The translations under genes were made by a program, and so were the position numbers. A stretch of 64,000 bases of DNA from Nitrosospira multiformis (GTDB lineage: Bacteria; Pseudomonadota; Gammaproteobacteria; Burkholderiales; Nitrosomonadaceae), in assembly GCF_900103165.1 (NCBI RefSeq), contig NZ_FNKY01000001.1:2976001-3040000 (forward strand), given 5' to 3'. Positions 5,686 to 21,124 of the stretch are shown piece after piece. The notes beneath the pieces were generated by a model that worked only from the letters and a program-made list of their open reading frames with translations, did no database searches and had not been told where the DNA came from. Within the stretch, counting starts at the first letter, position 1, and each line of letters starts with the position of its first letter.

Positions 5686-5930
5686 AAATAAACTCGAAAT
5701 GGATTTCCACGCCATACTTTGCAAGCACGATTGGTGTAGAACCCATTCTTAGATCGGCACGATCAATCCGTTCTTTTCAGCCAGTGAAGTAAACCTGGTC
5801 GGAGAATCAATCCTAGTTGCTGATGCTGTCACCGCAGCGACACTTCTATACTCATCAGCTTACCGCCGGGCATGTCAACGATCGATGGAAATGCAGTAGC
5901 GCCTCATTGCGCTCCACTGCATGGCGCAAA
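5686..5930 (-). pseudogene. Decayed EAL (c-di-GMP phosphodiesterase) domain remnant
   Basis: Reading downstream of the PAS-GGDEF gene in other frames recovers the start of an EAL domain: LRHAVERNEALLHFH, then after a frame change IVDMPGGKLMSIEVSLR followed by TGA where the family has W. After another shift comes SPTRFTSLAEKNGLIVPI, a TAA stop, and EWVLHQSC. These match the canonical series (Q-P-IVD...LRW...F-IPLAEE-GLI-PIG-WVL). The EAL signature segment itself and the rest of the domain are gone, and homology stops next to tRNA-Ser. The ancestral gene was therefore a PAS-GGDEF-EAL protein that has lost its phosphodiesterase half. Confidence 0.8.
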
Positions 5931-6878
5931 TTTCTCTTGCAGAGTGAGCCGGTCTGTTGCCCGTCTGTCCATTTCTGGCGCAAAGAACTGGTAGTTATTG
6001 CGCCCATTCTCCTTGGCATGGTACATGGCGATATCACTGTTTTTCAGCAACGTTTCCACGTCTTCTCCATCGGATGGGAACAGGGCAATACCCACGCTAC
6101 CGCCGATATGTAGTTCCCTGCTATCGATCAGAAAAGGCTGGATCAATCCGTCCAGTATCTTCTGCGCCACCACCTCCGCATCCTGAGCACCGCCTATATT
6201 CGGTAACAGCACAATGAATTCGTCCCCACCCCGGCGCGCGACCGTGTCTTCACCACGTACGATGGCGCTAAGCCTTGCTGCAACGTCCTGCAGCAGCAGA
6301 TCACCCATATCATGCCCCAGGGAATCATTGATGGTCTTGAAATAATCCAAGTCAATAAACAGTACCGCTGCTTGTTTCTCGCTGCGGCGGTCATGGGCGA
6401 TCGCTTGCATGATGCGGTCCCGCAATAAATTCCTATTAGGTAAACCAGTCAACCCATCATGAGTCGCCATCTCAATAATGCGCTTCTCCGATTGCTTACG
6501 CTCGGTGATATCGATGGTCATGCAAATCAAATACAGTGGCTTTCCAGATGCGTCATAAATAGGCTTCTTGAAGGTATGACCAAGGCGATTTTGCCCAAGC
6601 GCGACATTCCAGATTGTTTCTTCAAAATCAATTTGGCTACCCACCATAAATACTTCTTGATCCTTGGCGAGAAATTGTTTCATCTGCTCAGGCGGAAAGA
6701 CCTGACTAGCATCCGTTCCACGCAGGTCTGAGAAATTGATGCCCCATTGTGCTTCGCAAGCTTTGTTCATCGCCAAGAACTTACTTTCGGCATCCTTTAT
6801 AAAAATAGCGATAGGCAAGATATCTATTAATACCTGAATTTTTTGTGCGTCATCAAAGAACTGGAAATGTGGGATCAT
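5904..6878 (-). CDS. PAS-GGDEF diguanylate cyclase (truncated former GGDEF-EAL protein)
   Basis: A 324-residue open frame. The N-terminal PAS domain (about 12-135; IAIFIKDAESKFLAMNKACE and the PAC-like GKPLYLICMTIDITERK) is followed by a GGDEF domain (THDGLTGLPNRNLLRDR; DYFKTINDSLGHDMGD; RRGGDEFIVLLP). The GGDEF signature is intact, and an RxxD inhibitory site (RGED) lies five residues before it, so c-di-GMP synthesis with product feedback is plausible. No membrane segment is seen. The protein ends ATDRLTLQEKFAPCSGAQ, where a frameshift replaces the expected linker into EAL (see the remnant downstream). Whether the shortened protein is made and active is unknown. Confidence 0.85.
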   Translation of the reverse strand: MIPHFQFFDDAQKIQVLIDILPIAIFIKDAESKFLAMNKACEAQWGINFSDLRGTDASQVFPPEQMKQFLAKDQEVFMVGSQIDFEETIWNVALGQNRLGHTFKKPIYDASGKPLYLICMTIDITERKQSEKRIIEMATHDGLTGLPNRNLLRDRIMQAIAHDRRSEKQAAVLFIDLDYFKTINDSLGHDMGDLLLQDVAARLSAIVRGEDTVARRGGDEFIVLLPNIGGAQDAEVVAQKILDGLIQPFLIDSRELHIGGSVGIALFPSDGEDVETLLKNSDIAMYHAKENGRNNYQFFAPEMDRRATDRLTLQEKFAPCSGAQ

Positions 6879-10408: not shown

Positions 10409-10873
10409 ATGCGGGCAAGAATGTTCAATCAATATATTGTTTTCATTCTGGATGGTCAGCGCTATGCACTGCATCTGTCTGCGGTGGACAGAGTGGTGCG
10501 TATGGTCCATGTCACTCCGCTGTCAAGTGCACCGGACATCGTGCTCGGCGTAGTCAATATACAAGGCCAAATCGTCCCTGTCATTAATGTCCGGCAGCGT
10601 TTCAAGTTGCCAAAACGAGAAGTCACCCTGAACGACCTGCTTATTTTTGCACATACAAAACGGCGCCCCGTAGCGCTGGTAGTAGATGCGGTTACGGGAA
10701 TTCTCGAATGCTCCGAGGAAAGCCGGCTCTCGGCGGAAAGTGTTTTTCCGGAACTCGAGTATCTCGAAGGTATCATCAAATTTAAAGATGGGCTGATCCT
10801 GATCCACAATCTGGATAAATTTCTTTCTCTGGAAGAAGAAAACACTTTGGATCTGGCACTGGATACCGCCTGA
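10409..10873 (+). CDS. CheW-type coupling protein, WspB-like
   Basis: A 154-residue CheW domain protein and the first gene of the chemosensory operon. Seen: FILDGQRYALHLSAVDRVVRMV, LGVVNIQGQIVPVINVRQRF and LVVDAVTGILE, the standard CheW series. It should couple the operon's receptor to its CheA at the inner membrane. A second Met at 10421 is also possible (MFNQYIVFIL); neither start has a strong ribosome site. CheR follows after eight bases, so translation is probably coupled. Two CheWs with a TPR-type CheR match the Wsp (alternative cellular function) class of chemosensory systems. Confidence 0.9.
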   Translation: MRARMFNQYIVFILDGQRYALHLSAVDRVVRMVHVTPLSSAPDIVLGVVNIQGQIVPVINVRQRFKLPKREVTLNDLLIFAHTKRRPVALVVDAVTGILECSEESRLSAESVFPELEYLEGIIKFKDGLILIHNLDKFLSLEEENTLDLALDTA

Positions 10874-10881
10874 GGCCAAAT

Positions 10882-12372
10882 ATGCAATTCACGGTTCCCC
10901 ATCCACTGTTGTCCCAGCTAAGCGAATTGCTTTCTACGCAGATGGGCTTGTATTACCCGGAAAAACGTCTGACTGATCTCGAGCGCGGAATTATTGCCGC
11001 CACGCCCGCGCTTGGAGTGGGAAGCCCGGAAGCATGCGTCCGACAGCTTCTATCCGCAACGCTGACGCGTAAACAGGTCGAGATACTCGCTTCCCATCTG
11101 ACTGTTGGCGAGACCTATTTCTTCCGCGAGAAGAAAAGTTTCACCGTACTGGAGGACCATATATTTCCAGAATTGATGCGCACGTGCGCACATGCGAACC
11201 GGCAATTGCGTATCTGGAGCGCGGGTTGCTGCACAGGCGAGGAGCCCTATTCGATCGCAATGCTGCTTGATCGGCTGATCGGGCATTCCGAAAAATGGAA
11301 TGCGACCATCCTGGCTACCGACATTAACCCGGTGTTTCTGCAAAAGGCTGCCGAAGGGCTTTATAGCGAGTGGTCATTTCGCGAAACGCCGGTCTGGATC
11401 AAGGAGCGATATTTCAAACAAAGAAAAAAAGGGCAATTCGAAATATTGCCGCACATTCGTAAACGGGTGACTTTTTCCTATCTTAATCTTGCCGAAGACG
11501 CCTATCCTTCGCTTACCAATGATACCCATGCGATGGACGTGATCTTTTGCCGCAATGTGCTGATGTACTTCAGTCCGGAATGGGTACAGAAAATTGGACA
11601 AAACTTCCACCGGTCACTTGTCAATGGCGGATGGCTCATCGTAAGTCCCGTGGAAAGCTCAAGCAGCCTGTTCTCTCAGTTCAAGGCCACTCCATTCCCC
11701 CAAGCGATTCTCTATCAAAAGACCAAAAAACAGGAATCGCAGACAAGCGTGGCGGAGTACTCAGCCACGATGCCCGACTCGTCACCCAGTGCATCATGCA
11801 TGCCAGCGCCAGCGTTGACGCAAGTTTCCTTTTTTCAGGATGAGAAAATATCCTTTTCGCTGAAACATGTCTCGACGGAGGCATTGTCAGTGGTAACAAG
11901 TGCGTCCGTTCAACCCCAAAACGTGCAGCATACCGGAATCGATCCAGAGCACCATGGCCTTGATGCGCTCTGTCGCACAGCCCGTTCCCATGCCAATCTG
12001 GGGGAGCTCACCGAGGCCATTAAATGGTGTGAAAAAGCAATCGCTGCCAACAAACTCAATCCGGCAGCTCATTATCTCCTGGCAACAATACATCAGGAAC
12101 TGGGGCAAGGCGAAATTGCAGCACAGTCGCTGATGCGCACACTTTATCTTGATCCAAACTTTGTGCTCGCCCACTTCGCGTTGGGCAACCTGTGTCTGTC
12201 GCAAGGCCGGCATCGCGAGGCGGAAAGGCATTTCGACAATGCATTGGCGCTATTGCATGCACACCCCCACGATGAACTTCCTCTGGAAGCGGGCGGACTG
12301 ACCGCTGGACGGCTTACCGAAATTATTACATCCGTGCGCACCAGCCTCTCGCGCTCGACCCCGGAAATTTGA
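10882..12372 (+). CDS. CheR methyltransferase with C-terminal TPR repeats, WspC-like
   Basis: A 496-residue SAM-dependent protein-glutamate methyltransferase for the operon's receptor. Seen: the CheR N-terminal helical domain (about 1-75), LTVGETYFFRE, the SAM site RIWSAGCCTGEEPYSIAMLL, ILATDINPVFLQKA and VIFCRNVLMYFSPE. After a variable linker (about 275-345), the tail carries TPR-like units (ARSHANLGELTEAIKWCEKAI, AAHYLLATIHQELGQGEIAAQSL, AHFALGNLCLSQGRHREAERHF). The TPR-bearing CheR is the Wsp/Frz type, where the repeats mediate partner contacts rather than a pentapeptide tether. Confidence 0.93.
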   Translation: MQFTVPHPLLSQLSELLSTQMGLYYPEKRLTDLERGIIAATPALGVGSPEACVRQLLSATLTRKQVEILASHLTVGETYFFREKKSFTVLEDHIFPELMRTCAHANRQLRIWSAGCCTGEEPYSIAMLLDRLIGHSEKWNATILATDINPVFLQKAAEGLYSEWSFRETPVWIKERYFKQRKKGQFEILPHIRKRVTFSYLNLAEDAYPSLTNDTHAMDVIFCRNVLMYFSPEWVQKIGQNFHRSLVNGGWLIVSPVESSSSLFSQFKATPFPQAILYQKTKKQESQTSVAEYSATMPDSSPSASCMPAPALTQVSFFQDEKISFSLKHVSTEALSVVTSASVQPQNVQHTGIDPEHHGLDALCRTARSHANLGELTEAIKWCEKAIAANKLNPAAHYLLATIHQELGQGEIAAQSLMRTLYLDPNFVLAHFALGNLCLSQGRHREAERHFDNALALLHAHPHDELPLEAGGLTAGRLTEIITSVRTSLSRSTPEI

Positions 12373-12406
12373 AAAAAAGAAAATCAAACGAAAAACCAAG
12401 GCATCC

Positions 12407-13030
12407 ATGTCGCAAGAAAAGAGAAAACCGGCGCCCGTCAACTTCCGCGAGATCGAGCAGCGCCTGGCGACCGCGCGCACCACTATCGAACGTATCTGGG
12501 CGCCAACTACCGAAGAGACACAGCGAATCCTGCGGGCAAGAGCGCTGGCGCTGGCGCAGGAATCCACGCTGGACGAGACCCTCGATGAAGACATTGAGGT
12601 CATGGAATTCACGCTTGCCTATGAACAATATGCGATTGAAACACGCTACGTCCGTCAGGTTGCTGCTCTGGAGAACCTGACACCACTGCCTTGCACGCCG
12701 GCTTTTTTGCTCGGTATCGTCAACTTGCGCGGCGCGATACTCCCGGTCATTGATCTCAGGAAGCTTTTCGAATTGCCGGAAAGAGGCCTGACCGACCTCC
12801 ACAGGATTATCGTACTGCAATCCGGAAAAATACTTTTCGGCATCCTGGCTGACACCGTCACCAGCGTACGCCGTATTTTATTGGCCGACCTCCAGCCGTC
12901 CCTGCCCACCCTTACGGGCGTCCGCAGAACCTACCTGGCGGGGATAACGCCTGAGCGGCTGGTAGTGCTTGATGCGGAAAAACTTCTGATGGATGAAAGT
13001 ATTAACGTGCAGGACCAAGTAGCCGAGTAG
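12407..13030 (+). CDS. Second CheW-type coupling protein, WspD-like
   Basis: A 207-residue protein with an N-terminal helical extension (about 1-60, including EQRLATARTTIERIWAPTTEE) before a full CheW domain (MEFTLAYEQYAIETRYVRQVAALEN; LLGIVNLRGAILPVIDLRKLFELP; GILADTVTSVRRI; YLAGITPERLVVLDAEKLL). The extension is characteristic of WspD-like couplers. It starts 34 bases after cheR and is followed by a 104-base gap before the receptor gene; that gap holds a small palindrome, TCTCGA-TT-TCGAGA (13086-13099). Confidence 0.9.
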   Translation: MSQEKRKPAPVNFREIEQRLATARTTIERIWAPTTEETQRILRARALALAQESTLDETLDEDIEVMEFTLAYEQYAIETRYVRQVAALENLTPLPCTPAFLLGIVNLRGAILPVIDLRKLFELPERGLTDLHRIIVLQSGKILFGILADTVTSVRRILLADLQPSLPTLTGVRRTYLAGITPERLVVLDAEKLLMDESINVQDQVAE

Positions 13031-13134
13031 AGAGAGGGATAAATGAAAAGTACATACGCAAAAAATGTAAGCATGCGCGGTAGTTTCTCGATTTCGAGAT
13101 ACACGGCAAGACGGTGTTTTTAAGGGATCAAACC

Positions 13135-14625
13135 ATGACCATCAGCAAGAAAATCATCGGCGGGTATGCAATCGTACTGGCAATGCTCGCGCTCGTAACA
13201 GGGGTTTCCTTTAATGCGCTCAATCAGACACAGGCCACATACGACCGCTTCTTGAACGTGGACGAACGATTGCTGGAAGGTGCCAACGAGCTTCGGACCG
13301 TTGCATTTGCTCAGCAAACCTATGTACGAGGTACTTTACTTTTCCCGGAACTCCGGAAGCTGAATCGGACTCTTCTGCAAGCCAACGATCGCCTATTCAA
13401 GCAAACCCTGGCAAAAATGCGTCTGCTAATGAGCACTACAGAAGGACATGAACAAGGACTCGAATTTATCAAGGAATTTGAATCTTTCCAGGAGAAACTC
13501 GAGCAAGCTGAGCATGAAACCGTCCGCCTTGCACTGGAGGATAAAATGGAGGAGGCCACCGCCTATGCTATCAATCATTTTCGTCCTCTTAGCTTCGCGC
13601 TCATCGATAAAGCCGCGGAATTCCATGGCCGGAAATCCAAGATGCTGGATAAAGCAAGAGTTCGTCTTACAGAGGAAGTCAGGCTCCTTACGTGGATACT
13701 GGCGGCCGTCTCGCTGTTTGCCTTTCTCGCCGGCTTGGCAAGCGGAGTCCATCTCAGCCGCACCATCACTCGTGAACTGCGGGAAAGCATCGTTCAATTA
13801 TCGGCGTCTTCAGCCGAAATTCTTGCCACTACCACGCAAGTGGCCTCGGGAGCAGCCGAGACTGCGGCCGCCGTAAGCGAAACTACTGCTACCGTCGAAG
13901 AGGTCAAACAAACCGCGCAGCTTGCAAATCAAAAGGCAAGATATGTTTCCGATAGCGCGCAAAAAGCTTCGAACGTTTCCCAGGCCGGCCGCAAATCGGT
14001 GGAGGAAGCTATTCATGGGATGCGCCGCATCCAGGAACAAATGGAATCCATCGCCGAGAGCATCGTGCAATTATCTGAGCAGAGCCACGCCATCGGCGAG
14101 ATCATTGCAACCGTCAATGACCTGGCAGAGCAATCGAATCTGCTTGCGGTAAACGCTGCCATTGAGGCAACCCGGGCCGGAGAACAAGGCAAGAGCTTCG
14201 GCGTAGTGGCGCAGGAGATCAGAAGCCTCGCCGAACAATCCAGGCAGGCGACCGGTCAGGTGCGCACGATTCTGGGCGACATTCAGAAAGCAACGAACGT
14301 TGCGGTACTCGCTACCGAGCAGGGCAACAAAGCGGTAGAGGCTGGCGTAAAACAGTCCACCGAAACCGACGAAGCCATCCGCATGTTATCGGCAAGTATC
14401 AATGAGGCGGCACAGGCAGCCACCCAGATCGCCGCTTCCAGTCAGCAGCAAATGGTTGGCATGGATCAGGTAGTGCTGGCTATGAATAACATCAAGCAGG
14501 CGAGCGAGCAGAACGTAGCAGGCACCCGGCAGGCGGAACTCGCGGCGCAGAGCCTGTATGAGATGGGCGGGAGACTAGGCGCTTTGGTAGGGAGTGAGCC
14601 CGTCCCGATAGCGAGAGCAAAATAA
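13135..14625 (+). CDS. Methyl-accepting chemotaxis-type receptor, WspA-like
   Basis: Membrane receptor of 496 residues from the ATG at 13135, preferred over the GTG at 13114 because AAGGG lies eight bases before it. Seen: TM1 (about 11-30, YAIVLAMLALVTGVSF), a helical periplasmic domain of four-helix-bundle type (about 31-180), and TM2 (LLTWILAAVSLFAFLAGLASGV). A long coiled-coil signalling domain follows with the kinase-contact hairpin (TVNDLAEQSNLLAVNAAIEATRAGEQGKSFGVVAQEIRSLAEQS). No HAMP domain is obvious after TM2, and there is no C-terminal CheR-binding pentapeptide, fitting the TPR-type CheR. The ligand is unknown; Wsp receptors respond to surface contact in Pseudomonas. Confidence 0.92.
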   Translation: MTISKKIIGGYAIVLAMLALVTGVSFNALNQTQATYDRFLNVDERLLEGANELRTVAFAQQTYVRGTLLFPELRKLNRTLLQANDRLFKQTLAKMRLLMSTTEGHEQGLEFIKEFESFQEKLEQAEHETVRLALEDKMEEATAYAINHFRPLSFALIDKAAEFHGRKSKMLDKARVRLTEEVRLLTWILAAVSLFAFLAGLASGVHLSRTITRELRESIVQLSASSAEILATTTQVASGAAETAAAVSETTATVEEVKQTAQLANQKARYVSDSAQKASNVSQAGRKSVEEAIHGMRRIQEQMESIAESIVQLSEQSHAIGEIIATVNDLAEQSNLLAVNAAIEATRAGEQGKSFGVVAQEIRSLAEQSRQATGQVRTILGDIQKATNVAVLATEQGNKAVEAGVKQSTETDEAIRMLSASINEAAQAATQIAASSQQQMVGMDQVVLAMNNIKQASEQNVAGTRQAELAAQSLYEMGGRLGALVGSEPVPIARAK

Positions 14626-14630
14626 AATTT

Positions 14631-16985
14631 ATGATAAGCAAAAATGATGAGCTTTTGAGAAAGCTCCTTGCAACGTTTCAAGTTGAGGCGGATGCTCATC
14701 TCCAGGCAATGTCGTCTGGACTGCTCGCATTGAAAAAAATACCGGTGGGCCAGCAATTGGCTGATATTGTCGAAAGGATCTTCCGGGACGCGCACAGCTT
14801 GAAAGGTGCCGCCCGGGCAGTCAACCTCACGCAGATCGAAGCGGTCTGCCAATCGCTGGAAAACGTCTTCTCCGCGTTGAAAGACAAGCATCTTCCTGTC
14901 TCATCGCCGCTGATCGACCTGTTACTCCAGACCACCGATGCGCTGAGTGGGCTTCTTACTGGGGCTAATAGTGTAGCCGGAGCACAAAAACCTCGGGTGG
15001 CGACACTGATTCGACAGCTCGACGACGCATTCAGGGAGCCATTGTCCGAGTTCGCCAACCCCGCCCTGGCGCCGCAGATGGCTCCGCCCGACCAACCCAC
15101 CACCCTGCCCCCCGATGTACCCGCCGAACCGGATAAGAGTATGCAGATGCTGACCTCCACTCCCGGCCTGGCATCAACGACAGTCAGAGTCTCCGCCACC
15201 AAACTCGATGCCGTAATGCGTCAGGTTGAGGAATTGCTGCTGCCGCGTCTGGCGGTGAATCAACGCACCAAGGAGCTCACCGAGGCCGCCGCGATGCTTG
15301 CGGCATGGAAAAGACAGCGGCTGCATATTCAGCCGGCATTACGGCTTGTTGATCGTGAATTTGCGCGCAATATCAAGGATGGCAGCGCCTCCCGAAGGAA
15401 GCTTGAGCTTCCCCGGTTGCTCAAATATCTGGATGCCGAGCAACTCCACATGAAAATGCTTGAGGATCGCCTGGCAAGCCTGCAACGGGCAGCCGAGCAG
15501 GATCAGCGCGTATTGGCCGGCATGACCGACAGCCTGCGGCACGATGTCAAGGAGATGCAGTTACTGCCGTTCTCCTCGTTGCTGGATATTCTCCCTCGAT
15601 TATGCCGCGAGTTGGCCCGCGAGCAAGGCAAGAACGTAGATCTGGTGATTCAGGGCAGCGAAATAGAGATTGATCGGCATATTCTGGAGGAGATGAAAGA
15701 TCCACTTATTCACCTTGTGCGTAATTGCATTGATCACGGCATCGAGCAACCGGCGGCGCGCTTGGTCAAGGGCAAGCCGTCACACGGAACCATCACCCTG
15801 GCATGCTCGCAGAAAGACGGTGGCATGGCCGAGGTACTGGTGGCCGACGATGGTGCGGGCATCAATATCCCCCTGATAAAAGCCGCAGCGCATAAGCTCG
15901 GTATTGTTTCTGCCGAAGAGGCGAAACAGCTCGGTGAACGGGAATCGATGGCACTCGTTTTTCAATCCGGTGTAACCACCAGCCCCATTATTACTGATAT
16001 CTCCGGGCGCGGACTCGGGCTTCCAATTGTAAGTGAAAAAGTCGAACGCTTGGGTGGCACCATTCTGGTCAAGTCAAGCCCTGACGAGGGAACCGCCTTT
16101 CACCTGCTCCTGCCGCTAACGCTGGCAAATTTCCGTGGCGTCCTCATTCATGCCGGCAGGCAGCTTTTCGTCATTCCGTCGACGAGTGTTGAACGGGTGG
16201 TTCGGATCGCCAACAAGGAAATCCAGACGGTGGAGAACCGTGAAACAATCCTGGTGGATGAGCAACCGGTTTCTCTGGTCTGGTTAAGCGATGTGCTGGA
16301 ATTGCCACGTCATGTCATAGCGGCTGAACCCGCAGGCGGTATGAGCGCATCAGCTGTGATTCTTGGCTCGGGCCTTGCCCGCATCGCATTTTTGGTGGAA
16401 GAGATTCTTGGTGAACAGGAGGTGCTTGTCAAAACACTCGTCCGGCCATTGACGCGAGTACGCAATGTCGCGGGGGCGACGGTGCTGGGAACCGGGCGGG
16501 TAGTACCTGTGCTAAATGTAGCTGATTTACTGAAATCGGCTACGAAGCGCCCTGCCCGGATGCTCACCTCTGCGCACCAGTTATCGGCTGAAAAGCATGA
16601 AAATTCTAGAAAACTATCCATCCTTGTGGTGGAGGACTCCATCACCTCGCGGACATTGCTCAAAAATATCCTGGAATCATCGGGATATCGTGTGAGTACC
16701 GCCGTGGATGGGGTTGACGGCTACACCACGCTCAAAACGGGGGCGTTCGATCTGGTCGTCTCCGATGTTGAAATGCCGCGTATGGACGGTTTTGGTCTCA
16801 CCGCCAAAATACGTACCGACAAGCAATTTACAGGATTACCGGTAGTACTGGTGACAGCACTGGAATCCCGAGATCACCGCGAGCGCGGGATTGATGCGGG
16901 TGCCAATGCTTACATCGTGAAGAGCAGCTTCGATCAGAGTAATCTACTGGAGATCGTCCAGCGCCTTATCGGGACCCCGTCATGA
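14631..16985 (+). CDS. Hybrid chemotaxis histidine kinase CheA-REC, WspE-like
   Basis: A 784-residue hybrid kinase. Domain order: HPt (about 1-110; phospho-His55 in RDAHSLKGAARAV), linker, dimerisation region (about 185-300), HATPase (N-box HLVRNCIDHGIEQP; G-boxes VADDGAGI and ISGRGLGLPIVSEKVE), CheW-like domain (about 500-635; FRGVLIHAGRQLFVIP), and a C-terminal REC (about 660-784; VVEDSITSRTLL, phospho-Asp in VVSDVEMPRMDGF, Lys in YIVKSSF). It has no P2/CheY-binding domain that I can recognise. It starts five bases after the receptor gene. The CheA-REC fusion is the Wsp arrangement; the gap to cheB is filled by a repeat element. Confidence 0.94.
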   Translation: MISKNDELLRKLLATFQVEADAHLQAMSSGLLALKKIPVGQQLADIVERIFRDAHSLKGAARAVNLTQIEAVCQSLENVFSALKDKHLPVSSPLIDLLLQTTDALSGLLTGANSVAGAQKPRVATLIRQLDDAFREPLSEFANPALAPQMAPPDQPTTLPPDVPAEPDKSMQMLTSTPGLASTTVRVSATKLDAVMRQVEELLLPRLAVNQRTKELTEAAAMLAAWKRQRLHIQPALRLVDREFARNIKDGSASRRKLELPRLLKYLDAEQLHMKMLEDRLASLQRAAEQDQRVLAGMTDSLRHDVKEMQLLPFSSLLDILPRLCRELAREQGKNVDLVIQGSEIEIDRHILEEMKDPLIHLVRNCIDHGIEQPAARLVKGKPSHGTITLACSQKDGGMAEVLVADDGAGINIPLIKAAAHKLGIVSAEEAKQLGERESMALVFQSGVTTSPIITDISGRGLGLPIVSEKVERLGGTILVKSSPDEGTAFHLLLPLTLANFRGVLIHAGRQLFVIPSTSVERVVRIANKEIQTVENRETILVDEQPVSLVWLSDVLELPRHVIAAEPAGGMSASAVILGSGLARIAFLVEEILGEQEVLVKTLVRPLTRVRNVAGATVLGTGRVVPVLNVADLLKSATKRPARMLTSAHQLSAEKHENSRKLSILVVEDSITSRTLLKNILESSGYRVSTAVDGVDGYTTLKTGAFDLVVSDVEMPRMDGFGLTAKIRTDKQFTGLPVVLVTALESRDHRERGIDAGANAYIVKSSFDQSNLLEIVQRLIGTPS

Positions 16986-16998
16986 GCTCCTTCCCACG

Positions 16999-17097
16999 AT
17001 CCTGAAACCGGACAGATGACCGACACCATAACCTGCAAAGACTTTTCGTATCACTTAATGCTCACCTTTCTGGTGGGTTCACTACGGATTTAGGATG
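16999..17097 (+). repeat. Repeat family A, short copy A4, between cheA and cheB
   Basis: Left end ATCCTGAAACCGGACAGATG resembles the left end of the 240-bp copy at 49299 (ATCCTAAATCCGGTAGTTG), and the right end ACTACGGATTTAGGAT matches its right end. The middle keeps the block CTCACCTTTCTGGTGGGTTC seen in the long copies as CTCA-CTTCTGGGTGAG. About 140 bases of the long form are absent. The copy fills almost the whole intergenic space, and its last bases overlap the ATG of cheB (17095). Confidence 0.65.
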
Positions 17098-18180
17098 ATC
17101 AACGTTCTGGTAGTGGAAGATTCCCCCGTCGTACGTGAATTCCTTATTCACATTCTCAGCTCGGACCCTGATATTACGGTTATTGCAACGGCACATGATG
17201 GCGAGGAAGCGCTCGATCTTGTGCGGCGCTATCGTCCTGACGTAATCACCATGGACATTCACATGCCGAAACTGAACGGACTGGAAGCCACACGCCTCAT
17301 CATGGAAACGAATCCGACGCCCATTGTCATCGTCAGCGGCAGCGAGAATATCCATGAGGTCGCGACGACATTCGACGCGATGGATGCCGGCGCCTTGGCG
17401 GTGCTGCGCCGCCCGGCTGGTATTGGCCATGTGGATCATCAGGCCATGGCCCGGAATATGGTACAGACAATAAAGCTGATGTCGGAAGTCAAAGTGGTGC
17501 GGCGTTGGTCGCATATGCGAACTGTGGTACCTACTTTACAGCCGGCTAACCTGGGCTTGATCCGTGAATCGGCTCAAATCAGGGTTGTTGCCCTGGGAGC
17601 CTCGACCGGCGGCCCATCTGCGATCGAAACTATTCTGGCAGCGCTTCCGAGGAATTTTCCCGTACCCATCCTCATCGTCCAGCACATGGCACCAGGCTTC
17701 GTAGGGGGATTCGTCCGGTGGCTGGCAAACTCATCCAGGCTGCCGGTTCATGTTGCCACTCATGGCGCGCTCCTGCTACCCGGCCATGTCCACATCGCGC
17801 CCGATGAATATCAAATGAAGGTGGAACGCGGAGGCAGAATTGCCTTGACGCAGGACGAACTGGAAAATGGTTTAAGGCCTTCGGTTTCCTATCTTTTCCG
17901 AGCGGTCGCCGAAGTCTACGGCTGCGATGCCATCGCCGGACTGCTGACAGGAATGGGTCGTGATGGCGCCAACGAGTTGCGGCTGCTGAAGGAATCGGGT
18001 GCGGTTACTTTCGTCCAGGACCGGGATAGTTCTGTCGTAAACGGCATGCCGGGCGAGGCTGTCAAGCTGGACGCAGCAATGCTCGTACTGCCGCTGGAGA
18101 AAATCGCCGCGGCACTAACGAATCTAGTGAACCATCAAGGAAAACATTTGAGCGTGATCGATGACATCAAGAAAATTTAA
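17095..18180 (+). CDS. CheB-type protein-glutamate methylesterase, WspF-like
   Basis: A 361-residue REC-methylesterase fusion that removes receptor methyl groups. REC (about 1-120): VLVVEDSPVVREFL and phospho-Asp54 in VITMDIHMPKLNGLEA. The usual switch Lys is replaced by Arg (LAVLRRPAG), so signalling through the REC may be altered. Catalytic domain (about 165-350): Ser170 in LGASTGGPSAIE, His in LIVQHMAPGF, and Asp in LTGMGRDGANELR. The ATG at 17095 has no spaced ribosome site because the repeat A4 runs into it. The next gene overlaps its last 20 bases. Confidence 0.93.
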   Translation: MINVLVVEDSPVVREFLIHILSSDPDITVIATAHDGEEALDLVRRYRPDVITMDIHMPKLNGLEATRLIMETNPTPIVIVSGSENIHEVATTFDAMDAGALAVLRRPAGIGHVDHQAMARNMVQTIKLMSEVKVVRRWSHMRTVVPTLQPANLGLIRESAQIRVVALGASTGGPSAIETILAALPRNFPVPILIVQHMAPGFVGGFVRWLANSSRLPVHVATHGALLLPGHVHIAPDEYQMKVERGGRIALTQDELENGLRPSVSYLFRAVAEVYGCDAIAGLLTGMGRDGANELRLLKESGAVTFVQDRDSSVVNGMPGEAVKLDAAMLVLPLEKIAAALTNLVNHQGKHLSVIDDIKKI

Positions 18181-21124
18181 CACCAGTAACGTCGAGATCC
18201 TCCTCGCGGAAGATAGCCCAACCCAGGCGGAAAAACTACGATATCTGCTGGAGGAGCACGGCTATAGGGTCATGGCCGTGCCCAACGGCAAAGAGGCCCT
18301 CGCGGCGGCTCGGCGGCAAAAGCCGACGTTGATTATCAGTGATGTGATGATGCCCGAGATGGATGGGTTTATGCTATGCGGCGAAATCAAGCGCGATGAA
18401 CAGCTGAAGGACATCCCCATGATCCTTCTCACTTCGCTCTCGGATATCCGGGACATCATGAAGGGACTGGAATGCGGCGCCGACAATTTCATCCGCAAGC
18501 CGTACGAAGATCAATATCTGCTCGCCCGCATCGACTATCTGTTGATAAACCATGAGCTGCGCAAGAACCAGAAGATGCAGATGGGAATGGAGATTTATCT
18601 GGGTGGACAAAAACATTTCATCACTGCCGAACGCCAGCAGATCGTCGATCTACTGATTTCGATCTATGAGGATGCGGTCCACATCAACAAGGAACTCCAT
18701 GAACGGCAACTTGAGCTGGCACACTCGAATCATTTACTTACCGGACTTTACCGGATCGCGGAAGGCCTGAACCAGGCGGTAAGCCAGCACGAGGTATGTG
18801 AGAAAGCGCTTGAATACGCGATGGAACTGCCCGGGATCGAAGCGGGATGGCTTTACCTTTGCGATGATAATGGCTTCCGGGTGGCGGCTGCGCGCAACAT
18901 TCCGGCCTCATTGCTGGTTGCAGAGACGATGGAAGATGTGTGTGAATGTCAACGCCTTTTTCTTACTGAAGGTCTGGGCCATGCGATAAATATTGTCCAA
19001 TGCACACGGCTTATACCGCTTGGAAACGACACGCCAAGCTTTCACCATGCCAGCGTACCGTTACGGATCAATAATCAGAGCCGCGGTATCATGAATCTGA
19101 TCGGGATGAAACAAGATCTGTTCACGGACAATGAGCTGGAAACGTTGTACGGAGTGGGGCACCAGGTAAGTATTGCGCTGGAACGCGCCCGGTTGCATGA
19201 GCACATGGAACAACTAGTGGAGGAGCGCACGACAGCGCTCACTGCGGAAATCTCCCGGCGTAAGGAATATGAGGCCAGAATTGTCCGGCTCAACCGGATT
19301 TACAGCGTATTGAGCGGCATCAATACCACTATCGTGCGCGTCCGGGGAAGACAAGAACTTTTCGACAAGGCATGCCGTATCGCAGTGGATCACGGCCAGT
19401 TTGTGTTTACCTGGATCGGAATATTTCACGCCGATACACAAAATATCACACCCATGGCAAAGGCCGGTCGCGACGACGGCTATCTGTCACAGATCAACCT
19501 GGCTAATGTTATTGATTCTCCCGGAAATTCCTGGTTGATTGCAGAGGCGATCAAATGGGTCAAACCGGCTATTTGCAATGATCTTACCCTTATCACCCAC
19601 GAGAGCACACGTGCCTGGCATGCCCCAGCGCTAGACCGGGGCTATCATTCCAAGGTGGTGCTGCCACTCATCGTGGATAGCCATCTAGCCGGTATATTCG
19701 TACTCTATGCACCGGAAACAGGATTTTTCGACGAGGAGGAAATGACCTTGTTGACCGAAATGGCGGGCGATATTTCATTTGCCATGGATCACTTGAAAAA
19801 AGAGGAGCGTATCAACTATCTTGCGTTTTTCGATGCCGTAACCGATCTACCGAACCGTGCGTTGTTTGTGGACCGGGTCGATCAGCGAATCAGCACCATA
19901 CATCACGATCACGAGATACTTTCGGTAATTATTCTCGACCTCGAACGGTTCAGCAGTATTAATGAGTCCCTTGGCCATCAGGCCGGAGACAGTCTCCTGC
20001 GTCAACTGGGAAAACGACTGAAGCAGCTACTTTATGAAACAGATATTCTGGCCCATCTTTCGGCGGATTACTTTGCCATCGCCATAAAGCACGGAGAAGA
20101 CAGCACAGGCATTGCCCATGTTCTGGAGAAAGTTCTGTTCGGGATCCAGGATCAACCTTTCTTGATTGGCGGACAGGAGCTGCGCGTTTCCGCCAGGGCG
20201 GGGACATCGTCTTATCCTGCCGATGGCCGGAATACGGATACCCTTTTACGCAACGCTGAAACAGCGCTGAAAAAGGCCAAATTGTCTTACGACAAGCACC
20301 TCTTCTACGCTCCGGAATTCAATGCCCGGGTCACAGAAAAGCTGAAACTTGAAACCAAGTTGCGCCGGGCAATCGAGGAGGAACAGCTCGTACTGCACTA
20401 TCAGCCGAAAATTGATTTGGAAAGCGGACAAATCAGCGGGCTTGAGGCATTGATGCGCTGGAAGGACCCCGACAACGGCCTTGTCCCACCGTTAAGCTTT
20501 ATTCCCCTGCTCGAAGAAACAAGAATGATACTCGAGGCGGGACGGTGGGCATTGGACAAAGCAATATCGGATTCTAAGAGATGGCAGGCCATGGGGCTCA
20601 ATCCACCCAAGGTTGCCGTCAATGTCTCGCCAATTCAACTACGGCAGAAAGATTTTGTCAGCATGGTAGCCAGTGTGATAAACGGCGCCAAGAACGTAAC
20701 AATCGGGCTGGAACTTGAGATAACCGAGAGTGTAATCATGCAGGACATAGAAGCCAATATCCAAAAGCTCAGGATCATTCGCGATATGGATATCGAGGTC
20801 GCGATAGACGATTTCGGTACCGGCTATTCCTCGCTTAGTTATATTGCCAAATTGCCCGTCAACGTATTGAAGATTGACCGCGCTTTCATTATCAACATGA
20901 CCAGCAACCCCGACGATCTGAACATCGTCTCTGCCATCATTTCTCTGGCTCATTCCCTGGACCTGCGGGTAATCGCGGAGGGTGTGGAAACCAACGAGCA
21001 GGCGCAGCTTTTACGGGAGCTCAAATGCAACGAGATTCAAGGATATTTGTTCAGCCCTGGCGTTCCTGCAGAAAAAGTCGAAGAATTTCTACGCCAGAAA
21101 AAACTGCTCCCCAAGTTGATATAG
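18161..21124 (+). CDS. Response regulator with REC-GAF-GAF-degenerate GGDEF-EAL: predicted c-di-GMP phosphodiesterase output
   Basis: A 987-residue output protein in the place of WspR. REC (about 10-130): Asp61 in IISDVMMPEMDGF and Lys in FIRKPYED. First GAF about 190-350, coiled linker (EEERTTALTAEISRRKEYEA), second GAF about 375-550. The GGDEF domain (about 560-710) keeps its fold motifs (DAVTDLPNRALF; SINESLGHQAGD), but the signature is SADYF at 634-638, so synthesis should be lost. The EAL domain (about 725-985) is complete: GLEALMRW (E762), NVSPIQLR, LELEITESV, AIDDFGTGYSS, VLKIDRAF, IAEGVET and QGYLFSPGVP. I infer phosphorylation-controlled c-di-GMP hydrolysis. It overlaps cheB by 20 bases, indicating translational coupling. 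Confidence 0.93.
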   Translation: MTSRKFNTSNVEILLAEDSPTQAEKLRYLLEEHGYRVMAVPNGKEALAAARRQKPTLIISDVMMPEMDGFMLCGEIKRDEQLKDIPMILLTSLSDIRDIMKGLECGADNFIRKPYEDQYLLARIDYLLINHELRKNQKMQMGMEIYLGGQKHFITAERQQIVDLLISIYEDAVHINKELHERQLELAHSNHLLTGLYRIAEGLNQAVSQHEVCEKALEYAMELPGIEAGWLYLCDDNGFRVAAARNIPASLLVAETMEDVCECQRLFLTEGLGHAINIVQCTRLIPLGNDTPSFHHASVPLRINNQSRGIMNLIGMKQDLFTDNELETLYGVGHQVSIALERARLHEHMEQLVEERTTALTAEISRRKEYEARIVRLNRIYSVLSGINTTIVRVRGRQELFDKACRIAVDHGQFVFTWIGIFHADTQNITPMAKAGRDDGYLSQINLANVIDSPGNSWLIAEAIKWVKPAICNDLTLITHESTRAWHAPALDRGYHSKVVLPLIVDSHLAGIFVLYAPETGFFDEEEMTLLTEMAGDISFAMDHLKKEERINYLAFFDAVTDLPNRALFVDRVDQRISTIHHDHEILSVIILDLERFSSINESLGHQAGDSLLRQLGKRLKQLLYETDILAHLSADYFAIAIKHGEDSTGIAHVLEKVLFGIQDQPFLIGGQELRVSARAGTSSYPADGRNTDTLLRNAETALKKAKLSYDKHLFYAPEFNARVTEKLKLETKLRRAIEEEQLVLHYQPKIDLESGQISGLEALMRWKDPDNGLVPPLSFIPLLEETRMILEAGRWALDKAISDSKRWQAMGLNPPKVAVNVSPIQLRQKDFVSMVASVINGAKNVTIGLELEITESVIMQDIEANIQKLRIIRDMDIEVAIDDFGTGYSSLSYIAKLPVNVLKIDRAFIINMTSNPDDLNIVSAIISLAHSLDLRVIAEGVETNEQAQLLRELKCNEIQGYLFSPGVPAEKVEEFLRQKKLLPKLI

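Follow-up and report, generated by a model that had tools for sequence, protein, structure and literature searches.

A seven-gene chemosensory operon of Nitrosospira multiformis probably encodes a signaling array of the alternative cellular function (ACF) class whose output is a cyclic di-GMP (c-di-GMP) phosphodiesterase. The operon lies at positions 10409–21124 of a 64,000-nucleotide stretch of contig NZ_FNKY01000001.1, hereafter called the window, in a genome of 3.5 Mb. Its last gene encodes a receiver (REC)-linker-GAF-GAF-GGDEF-EAL protein that has lost the cyclase motif and retained the EAL catalytic residues, and in most Nitrosospira genomes the operon is the only chemosensory array that we detected.

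A conserved seven-gene operon of the probable ACF class

The operon comprises the following features, with the supporting evidence in brackets (MCP, methyl-accepting chemotaxis protein).

10409–10873, plus strand: CheW1 coupling protein, 154 aa (Pfam CheW, 1.3e-27)
10882–12372, plus strand: CheR methyltransferase with C-terminal TPR, 496 aa (Pfam CheR, 3.8e-50; TPR families)
12407–13030, plus strand: CheW2, N-terminally extended coupling protein, 207 aa (Pfam CheW, 3.4e-29, at residues 64–196)
13114–14625, plus strand: MCP receptor, 503 aa, GTG start as listed (Pfam MCPsignal, alignment, genome search)
14631–16985, plus strand: CheA hybrid kinase with Hpt (H55), HATPase, CheW and C-terminal REC (D712) (Pfam, invariant alignment columns)
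17095–18180, plus strand: CheB, REC (D54) and methylesterase (S170, H197, D290) (Pfam, 4.0e-58; residues by motif)
18161–21124, plus strand: output protein, REC-linker-GAF-GAF-GGDEF(degenerate)-EAL, 987 aa (Pfam, alignments, model, Foldseek)
18542–18739, plus strand: conserved linker, output residues 128–193 (alignments, profile counts, model)

Successive genes are separated by 8, 34, 83, 5, 109 and -20 bases, the negative value reflecting a 20-base overlap between cheB and the output gene. The four CheB residues were located by motif and their roles are presumed. A sequence-only reading of this stretch had listed the gene set CheW, CheR-TPR, CheW, MCP, CheA-REC and CheB; its reading frame coordinates proved exact and Pfam returned the claimed domains. 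CheA at 60% identity or more was present in 18 of 23 Nitrosospira genomes, the window's included, and in all 18 the seven genes stand in identical order and end in the same REC-GAF-GAF-GGDEF-EAL output type, the one exception being a cheB split into two overlapping frames in L037. Because both order and motifs recur in 18 genomes, neither the operon nor its motifs can be put down to chance. Pfam finds in the cluster both a CheR-TPR and a multidomain response regulator, the two features that define ACF systems in the parts of PMC3447774 (Munoz-Martinez et al. 2012) covered here.

The output protein has lost the cyclase motif and kept the EAL catalytic residues

Pfam places REC at residues 13–124 of the output protein, followed by two GAF domains, GGDEF at 555–709 and EAL at 733–966. 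This confirms the 987-residue architecture proposed earlier, including the two GAF domains as possible additional inputs, and the motif SADYF at 634–638 was also read correctly. SADYF stands where a diguanylate cyclase would carry the GG(D/E)EF active site, and the I-site (YETD, 625–628) is without the RxxD arginine. On the EAL side, E762, N821, E853, E856, D883, D884, K904, E940, E943 and Q960 are all present, as the sequence-only reading had held. Here and below, the catalytic roles of EAL and GGDEF residues are presumed from the corresponding positions in RocR and PleD.

To these observations we added an alignment of 24 outputs, 18 from Nitrosospira and six from related loci (L050, L058, L060, L061, L062 and L064). 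The EAL catalytic positions are invariant throughout (10/10, versus 89/234 positions of the domain overall; hypergeometric p 4.6e-5). At the GGDEF A-site all 24 are degenerate and none reads GG[DE]EF; position 637, which we take to be the catalytic Glu of cyclases, is occupied by Y, H, R, S, N or A, and the I-site arginine position is R in a single output (L037). Within the GGDEF domain, where 27/155 columns are invariant, D593, N601 and D610 are identical in all 24. If these are metal and guanine contacts, as we assume from PleD, their invariance fits a nucleotide-binding regulatory role for the degenerate domain. The REC residues E17, D18, D61, T91 and K113 are likewise invariant in 24/24. 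In a wider set of 33 GGDEF+EAL outputs encoded directly behind cheB in different genomes (18 Nitrosospira, 6 relatives, L077 and 8 of Pseudomonas type), the checked EAL residues are retained in every protein, with the GGDEF motif degenerate in 25, intact in 7 (GGDEF in six, SGDEF in one) and GGDDF in 1. SGDEF was counted as active following the rule in PMC9239204, as given in the part of that paper covered here.

In the profile search that had been proposed, phosphodiesterase families rank first in NCBIfam, every score lying under its equivalog cut-off, and they score far above the LapD family. Among sequence matches to solved structures, MorA, PA0575 and DosP stand far above LapD, and FimX is present too. 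An AlphaFold model of the protein had a mean pLDDT of 79.8 and a pTM of 0.36; given this pTM, domain placement is unreliable and only single domains were used. The modeled EAL domain superimposes on the EAL structures of MorA, MucR and PdeA with target TM scores of 0.90–0.95 and rmsd of 1.6–2.0 (Foldseek). A phosphodiesterase is the best reading of this output, and a likely one.

REC and linker are largely shared while the effector varies

The 66 residues that follow REC are predicted to fold into a beta-hairpin followed by the beginning of a long helix, and no Pfam match to them was found at E values up to 10. To follow this linker beyond Nitrosospira we used the best 80 loci among the matches listed from a scan of genome contigs. 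Forty loci were readable, meaning that the output gene lay directly behind cheB. The other 40 were set aside: in 27, CheB or a REC gene following it was not found, in 7 a gap exceeded 300 bases, in 4 the contig ended within the locus, 1 had a short REC and 1 lacked a complete CheA. The output of L051 was counted; L082 and L086, in which over-long overlapping frames masked the first output frame, and the second, non-adjacent GGDEF-EAL gene of L068 (GGDQF) were left out. The effector was a kinase in 19 of the readable outputs, GGDEF+EAL in 15 (two of them from the Nitrosospira strains Nitrosospira sp. Nsp11 and N. multiformis Nl12), GGDEF in 2 and unclear in 4, where kinase denotes a match to a HATPase profile grown from CheA seeds, backed in L063 and L072 by a complete Pfam search. 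The linker occurs in 37/40 of these outputs, the three without it being two kinases and one unclear case, and in none of five WspR-type outputs. Among other REC frames longer than 250 aa near these operons, which served as control, 6/47 carry it, and the coordinates of all six place them either immediately after cheB or one gene beyond that position.

Six close betaproteobacterial loci (L050, L058, L060, L061, L062 and L064) share the output type of the window, while L063 and L065, of the same clade, have kinase outputs instead. The kinase-output relatives (L063, L065, L068, L069, L072, L074 and others) resemble the window's output in REC, linker and, in some, GAF, and differ in ending in a histidine kinase; REC-GAF of the window is 51–58% identical to that of L063, L065, L068 and L074. 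Since the linker is shared by outputs with different effectors, the REC-linker appears to stay while the effector changes. Operons of Pseudomonas and Hahella (L094, L097, L099–L102) have a gene order broadly like that of the window, apart from no MCP recognized in L101, a second CheW not recognized in L094 and two MCPs in L097. Their outputs of 1192–1211 aa are 40–44% identical to the window's over REC-linker-GAF and keep the EAL motifs. Unlike the window's, they have an extra C-terminal REC and an intact GGDEF (SGDEF in L097), and the output of L094, the one checked for PAS, has PAS domains. From their motifs, these outputs are potentially bifunctional.

Several related loci showed further arrangements. 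A REC-EAL gene adjoins the kinase output in the same direction in L065 (7362) and L132 (5663), as if the two formed a relay. In L058 (12393–15361) and L062 (2867–4198), genes for GGDEF proteins separate cheA from cheB; the 539 aa protein of L058 has an intact motif, so this operon apparently codes for a cyclase as well as a phosphodiesterase. L064 and L067 are contigs of metagenome-assembled genomes labeled Klebsiella pneumoniae and ANME-2 archaeon, with operons close to betaproteobacterial ones; these contigs are possibly mis-binned. L054, on a plasmid of Niveispirillum cyanobacteriorum, has the same gene order as the window and a CheB 55% identical, with no REC gene behind cheB. L055, on pSymA of Sinorhizobium meliloti, is arranged as CheR-CheW-MCP-CheA-CheB, with a GGDEF-EAL gene and genes of a tad pilus nearby, and again no REC gene behind cheB.

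The array is the only one found in most Nitrosospira genomes

Exactly three CheW domains (two CheW proteins and one domain in CheA) and one MCP, all from this operon, were found in 17 of the 23 Nitrosospira genomes; in the window's genome the receptor of the operon is the only MCP signaling domain found. Among the other six, G004 carries a canonical system besides this one, three carry a canonical system only and two are without a CheW match. FliM is encoded by 22/23 genomes, among them 16/17 of the array-only set, and flagellin, searched for in 16 of the 23, was matched in 14, the window's included. As the array is the sole chemosensory pathway found in 17/23 genomes, control of swimming or attachment would there run via c-di-GMP and not via CheY and the motor. 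The two genomes without a CheW match (G012 and G013) have no MCP match either and do have FliM and flagellin, their FliM keeping an N-terminus like the presumed CheY-binding segment.

Counting the output itself, the genome of the window contains 20 GGDEF matches, two of which are partial, and 15 EAL matches, two of which share a frame. Its one PilZ match shares a frame with a YcgR-type PilZN. A GGDEF protein with an intact motif is encoded 3.5 kb upstream of the operon (5904–6878, minus strand). It was considered as a conserved partner cyclase and rejected, as no GGDEF frame was found in the 5.8 kb upstream of the operons in L056 and L057, both named Nitrosospira.

The receptor has a periplasmic domain resembling a four-helix bundle (4HB_MCP_1, 26.2 bits, just under the cut-off of 27). 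In the 18 Nitrosospira receptors, Pfam matched 4HB_MCP_1 in every case and HAMP in none; HAMP is present in the receptors of L050, L054 and the Wsp-type L053. The alignment agrees, with the second transmembrane segment of the window receptor running straight into the signaling helices, unlike in HAMP-bearing relatives. Against WspA-like receptors the signaling domain aligns with no gaps, and against one canonical receptor it shows paired 14-residue insertions, a pattern that may point to the 40-heptad class. In L058 two adjacent receptors (6089 and 7762) have near-identical signaling domains, one with a HAMP segment and one without.

The operon shares the gene content of Wsp and probably belongs to another branch

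The sequence-only reading had equated the gene set with WspB-C-D-A-E-F and proposed a Wsp operon in which WspR is replaced and the sign of the pathway reversed. The composition does agree: MCP, two CheW, CheR-TPR, CheA-REC and CheB are all present. For comparison we used seven Wsp-type references, namely L053, L137, L139, L140 and L141, with the MCP gene first and a REC-GGDEF output, and the Burkholderia clusters L138 and L142; the profile failed to detect the first CheW in L137, L139 and L141, that of L141 being annotated. The output of L053 matches the structures 3bre (2.6e-133), 3i5a (3.4e-132) and 3i5b, titled WspR (1.4e-50). The gene order is MCP-CheW-CheR-CheW-CheA-CheB in L053, L140 and L141, versus CheW-CheR-CheW-MCP-CheA-CheB in the window.

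Trees were built by a quick method from CheA (92 rows) and from CheA, CheB, CheR and MCP combined (51 rows); canonical CheA rows were picked by hand, and the window's clade was defined from the tree prior to the approximately unbiased (AU) tests. The Wsp-type references form a clade of their own (100*) on a stem of 1.44 in the CheA tree and 1.94 in the four-protein tree, where the window's operon sits apart from them in a betaproteobacterial clade of 14 rows (100*). Forcing Wsp and the window's clade together cost 54 log units with four proteins, which disfavors a joint clade only mildly (p-AU 0.042), and 29 with CheA alone, where it was not rejected (p-AU 0.157).

Wsp, a system of Pseudomonas and betaproteobacteria, and the window's operon are thus alike in the composition of the signaling core, a CheA with C-terminal REC, a receptor signaling domain apparently of the same length class and an output acting, in the window by prediction, on c-di-GMP. 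They differ in gene order, in lineage, in the absence of HAMP from the window receptor and in the output itself, which is REC-GGDEF in Wsp versus REC-linker-GAF-GAF-GGDEF(degenerate)-EAL in the window. According to the parts of PMC8552884 (Kessler et al. 2021) covered here, WspR or WspH is the output in all 794 clusters of that study, which were selected partly by output. EAL-ending outputs, for which a survey of Wsp-class operons had been suggested, do occur as GGDEF+EAL in 15/40 readable related loci; five of the Wsp-type references carry REC-GGDEF. Of the earlier proposal, the predicted phosphodiesterase output stands; the Wsp identity is not supported, on the grounds of order, trees and linker and notwithstanding the CheA-only test. 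A reversed Wsp is mostly the wrong frame, and the operon would belong to a different branch.

Discussion

We propose the following mechanism. The HAMP-less four-helix-bundle receptor, the two CheW proteins and CheA would assemble into an array, with CheR-TPR and CheB tuning receptor methylation to give a complete, adapting pathway. Phosphate would pass from H55 of CheA to the REC domain of CheB and to D61 of the output REC, and the EAL domain would hydrolyze c-di-GMP. REC, the hairpin and helix of the linker and the two GAF domains may act as serial switches along one helical spine. CheA kinase activity would most likely raise phosphodiesterase activity, a sign to which we give only a modest preference over the reverse. 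The GGDEF domain, though dead, has probably retained GTP binding and modulates EAL, by analogy with Caulobacter PdeA. PdeA is said to combine a degenerate GGDEF, which binds GTP, with an active EAL domain that it tunes, and its EAL structure is among those matching our model; it reportedly takes its input through PAS and belongs to no chemosensory operon.

Several points weigh against this reading. Intact EAL motifs fall short of proof of activity. FliM has an LSxEEVDALL-like N-terminus, presumably the CheY-binding segment, in the readable frames (20/22; those of G005 and G017 are not readable), including the frames of the two CheW-less genomes. Because the motif is kept there, the FliM test does not favor a CheY-free motor, and we set it aside as uninformative. 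The CheZ and CheY models were discarded as tests of a motor pathway as well: CheZ was found in 0/23 Nitrosospira genomes and CheY-model matches above the curated cut-off in 0/23, and since genomes with canonical Che systems, which have CheY-like genes beside their Che clusters, fail too, these models are uninformative. Finally, as PilZN occurs in 9/17 array-only genomes, the window's included, YcgR would not be a uniform target, and with PilZN in 11/23 genomes overall it was rejected as a genus-wide one.

Three other explanations of the same operon deserve weighing. The output could be a receptor for c-di-GMP and GTP and no enzyme in vivo, with both domains binding nucleotide and signaling by contact as LapD or FimX do. 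Tandem degenerate GGDEF-EAL receptors exist, the GGDEF domain here is degenerate, and LapD and FimX are among the sequence matches and LapD among the fold matches. LapD and FimX have reportedly lost EAL catalytic residues, whereas all ten such positions are invariant in our 24 sequences, MorA, PA0575 and DosP stand far above LapD by sequence, and phosphodiesterase families far above the LapD family; we regard a pure receptor as unlikely, if the least unlikely of the three. A case for the array working mainly on the flagellar switch, by way of an unlinked CheY, the phosphodiesterase being a side branch or phosphate sink, might be made from the FliM proteins of 16/17 array-only genomes, with their CheY-binding-like N-termini where readable, and from the 31 CheY-model matches in the window's genome. 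The best of these matches is the REC domain of CheA, however, and none of the 7 listed among the 31 is a CheY-sized frame; moreover, the output gene lies directly behind cheB in the operons surveyed. This explanation seems to us improbable.

We give equally little credence to a Wsp system in which a phosphodiesterase took the place of WspR and inverted the pathway. Gene content, the gapless alignment of the receptor signaling domain and the CheA-only AU test are all compatible with it. Against it stand the different gene order, the separate clades with the four-protein test, and the linker, which is shared with kinase outputs and was not found in any of the five WspR-type outputs; the nearest lineages, too, carry kinase and GGDEF-EAL outputs alike. 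Our preferred reading is an ACF array whose output is a phosphodiesterase.

Chemosensory systems that modulate c-di-GMP have been divided into two classes, ACF and type IV pilus (TFP), with the WspR cyclase as an ACF example (PMC8846402, part covered here). The ACF pathways of PMC3447774 are like the window's operon in having CheR-TPR in the cluster and a response regulator fused to effectors. The covered parts of that study report CheR-TPR clusters with REC-EAL once and with REC-GGDEF-EAL twice, so outputs of this kind were already known. The main text, as covered, does not name Nitrosospira, and these parts make no mention of the window lineage, the linker, the conserved cyclase loss or the sole-array state. 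In the open-licence literature searched by titles and abstract beginnings, no chemosensory phosphodiesterase output was described and nothing on the Nitrosospira system was found. Measured against this literature, the present analysis adds the description of the lineage, the linker, the consistent degeneration of the cyclase motif and the sole-array state.

Nitrosospira are major ammonia oxidizers of soil, for which attachment and dispersal matter. Wsp, the best-studied case of chemosensory control of c-di-GMP, works via a cyclase, in contrast with the phosphodiesterase predicted here. A conserved adaptor with a varying effector makes it testable how CheA specificity persists while outputs change, and a second testable question is what use a flagellated bacterium makes of one receptor when no motor-directed Che genes are found. 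As a tentative and wider view, which we hold to be possible though doubtful, in most Nitrosospira a single-receptor array may have replaced motor-directed chemotaxis and may steer flagellated cells only by lowering c-di-GMP, through chemokinesis or detachment; it would belong to a cross-phylum lineage in which a CheA-docking REC-linker adaptor was kept and the effector was repeatedly exchanged among kinase, cyclase and phosphodiesterase.

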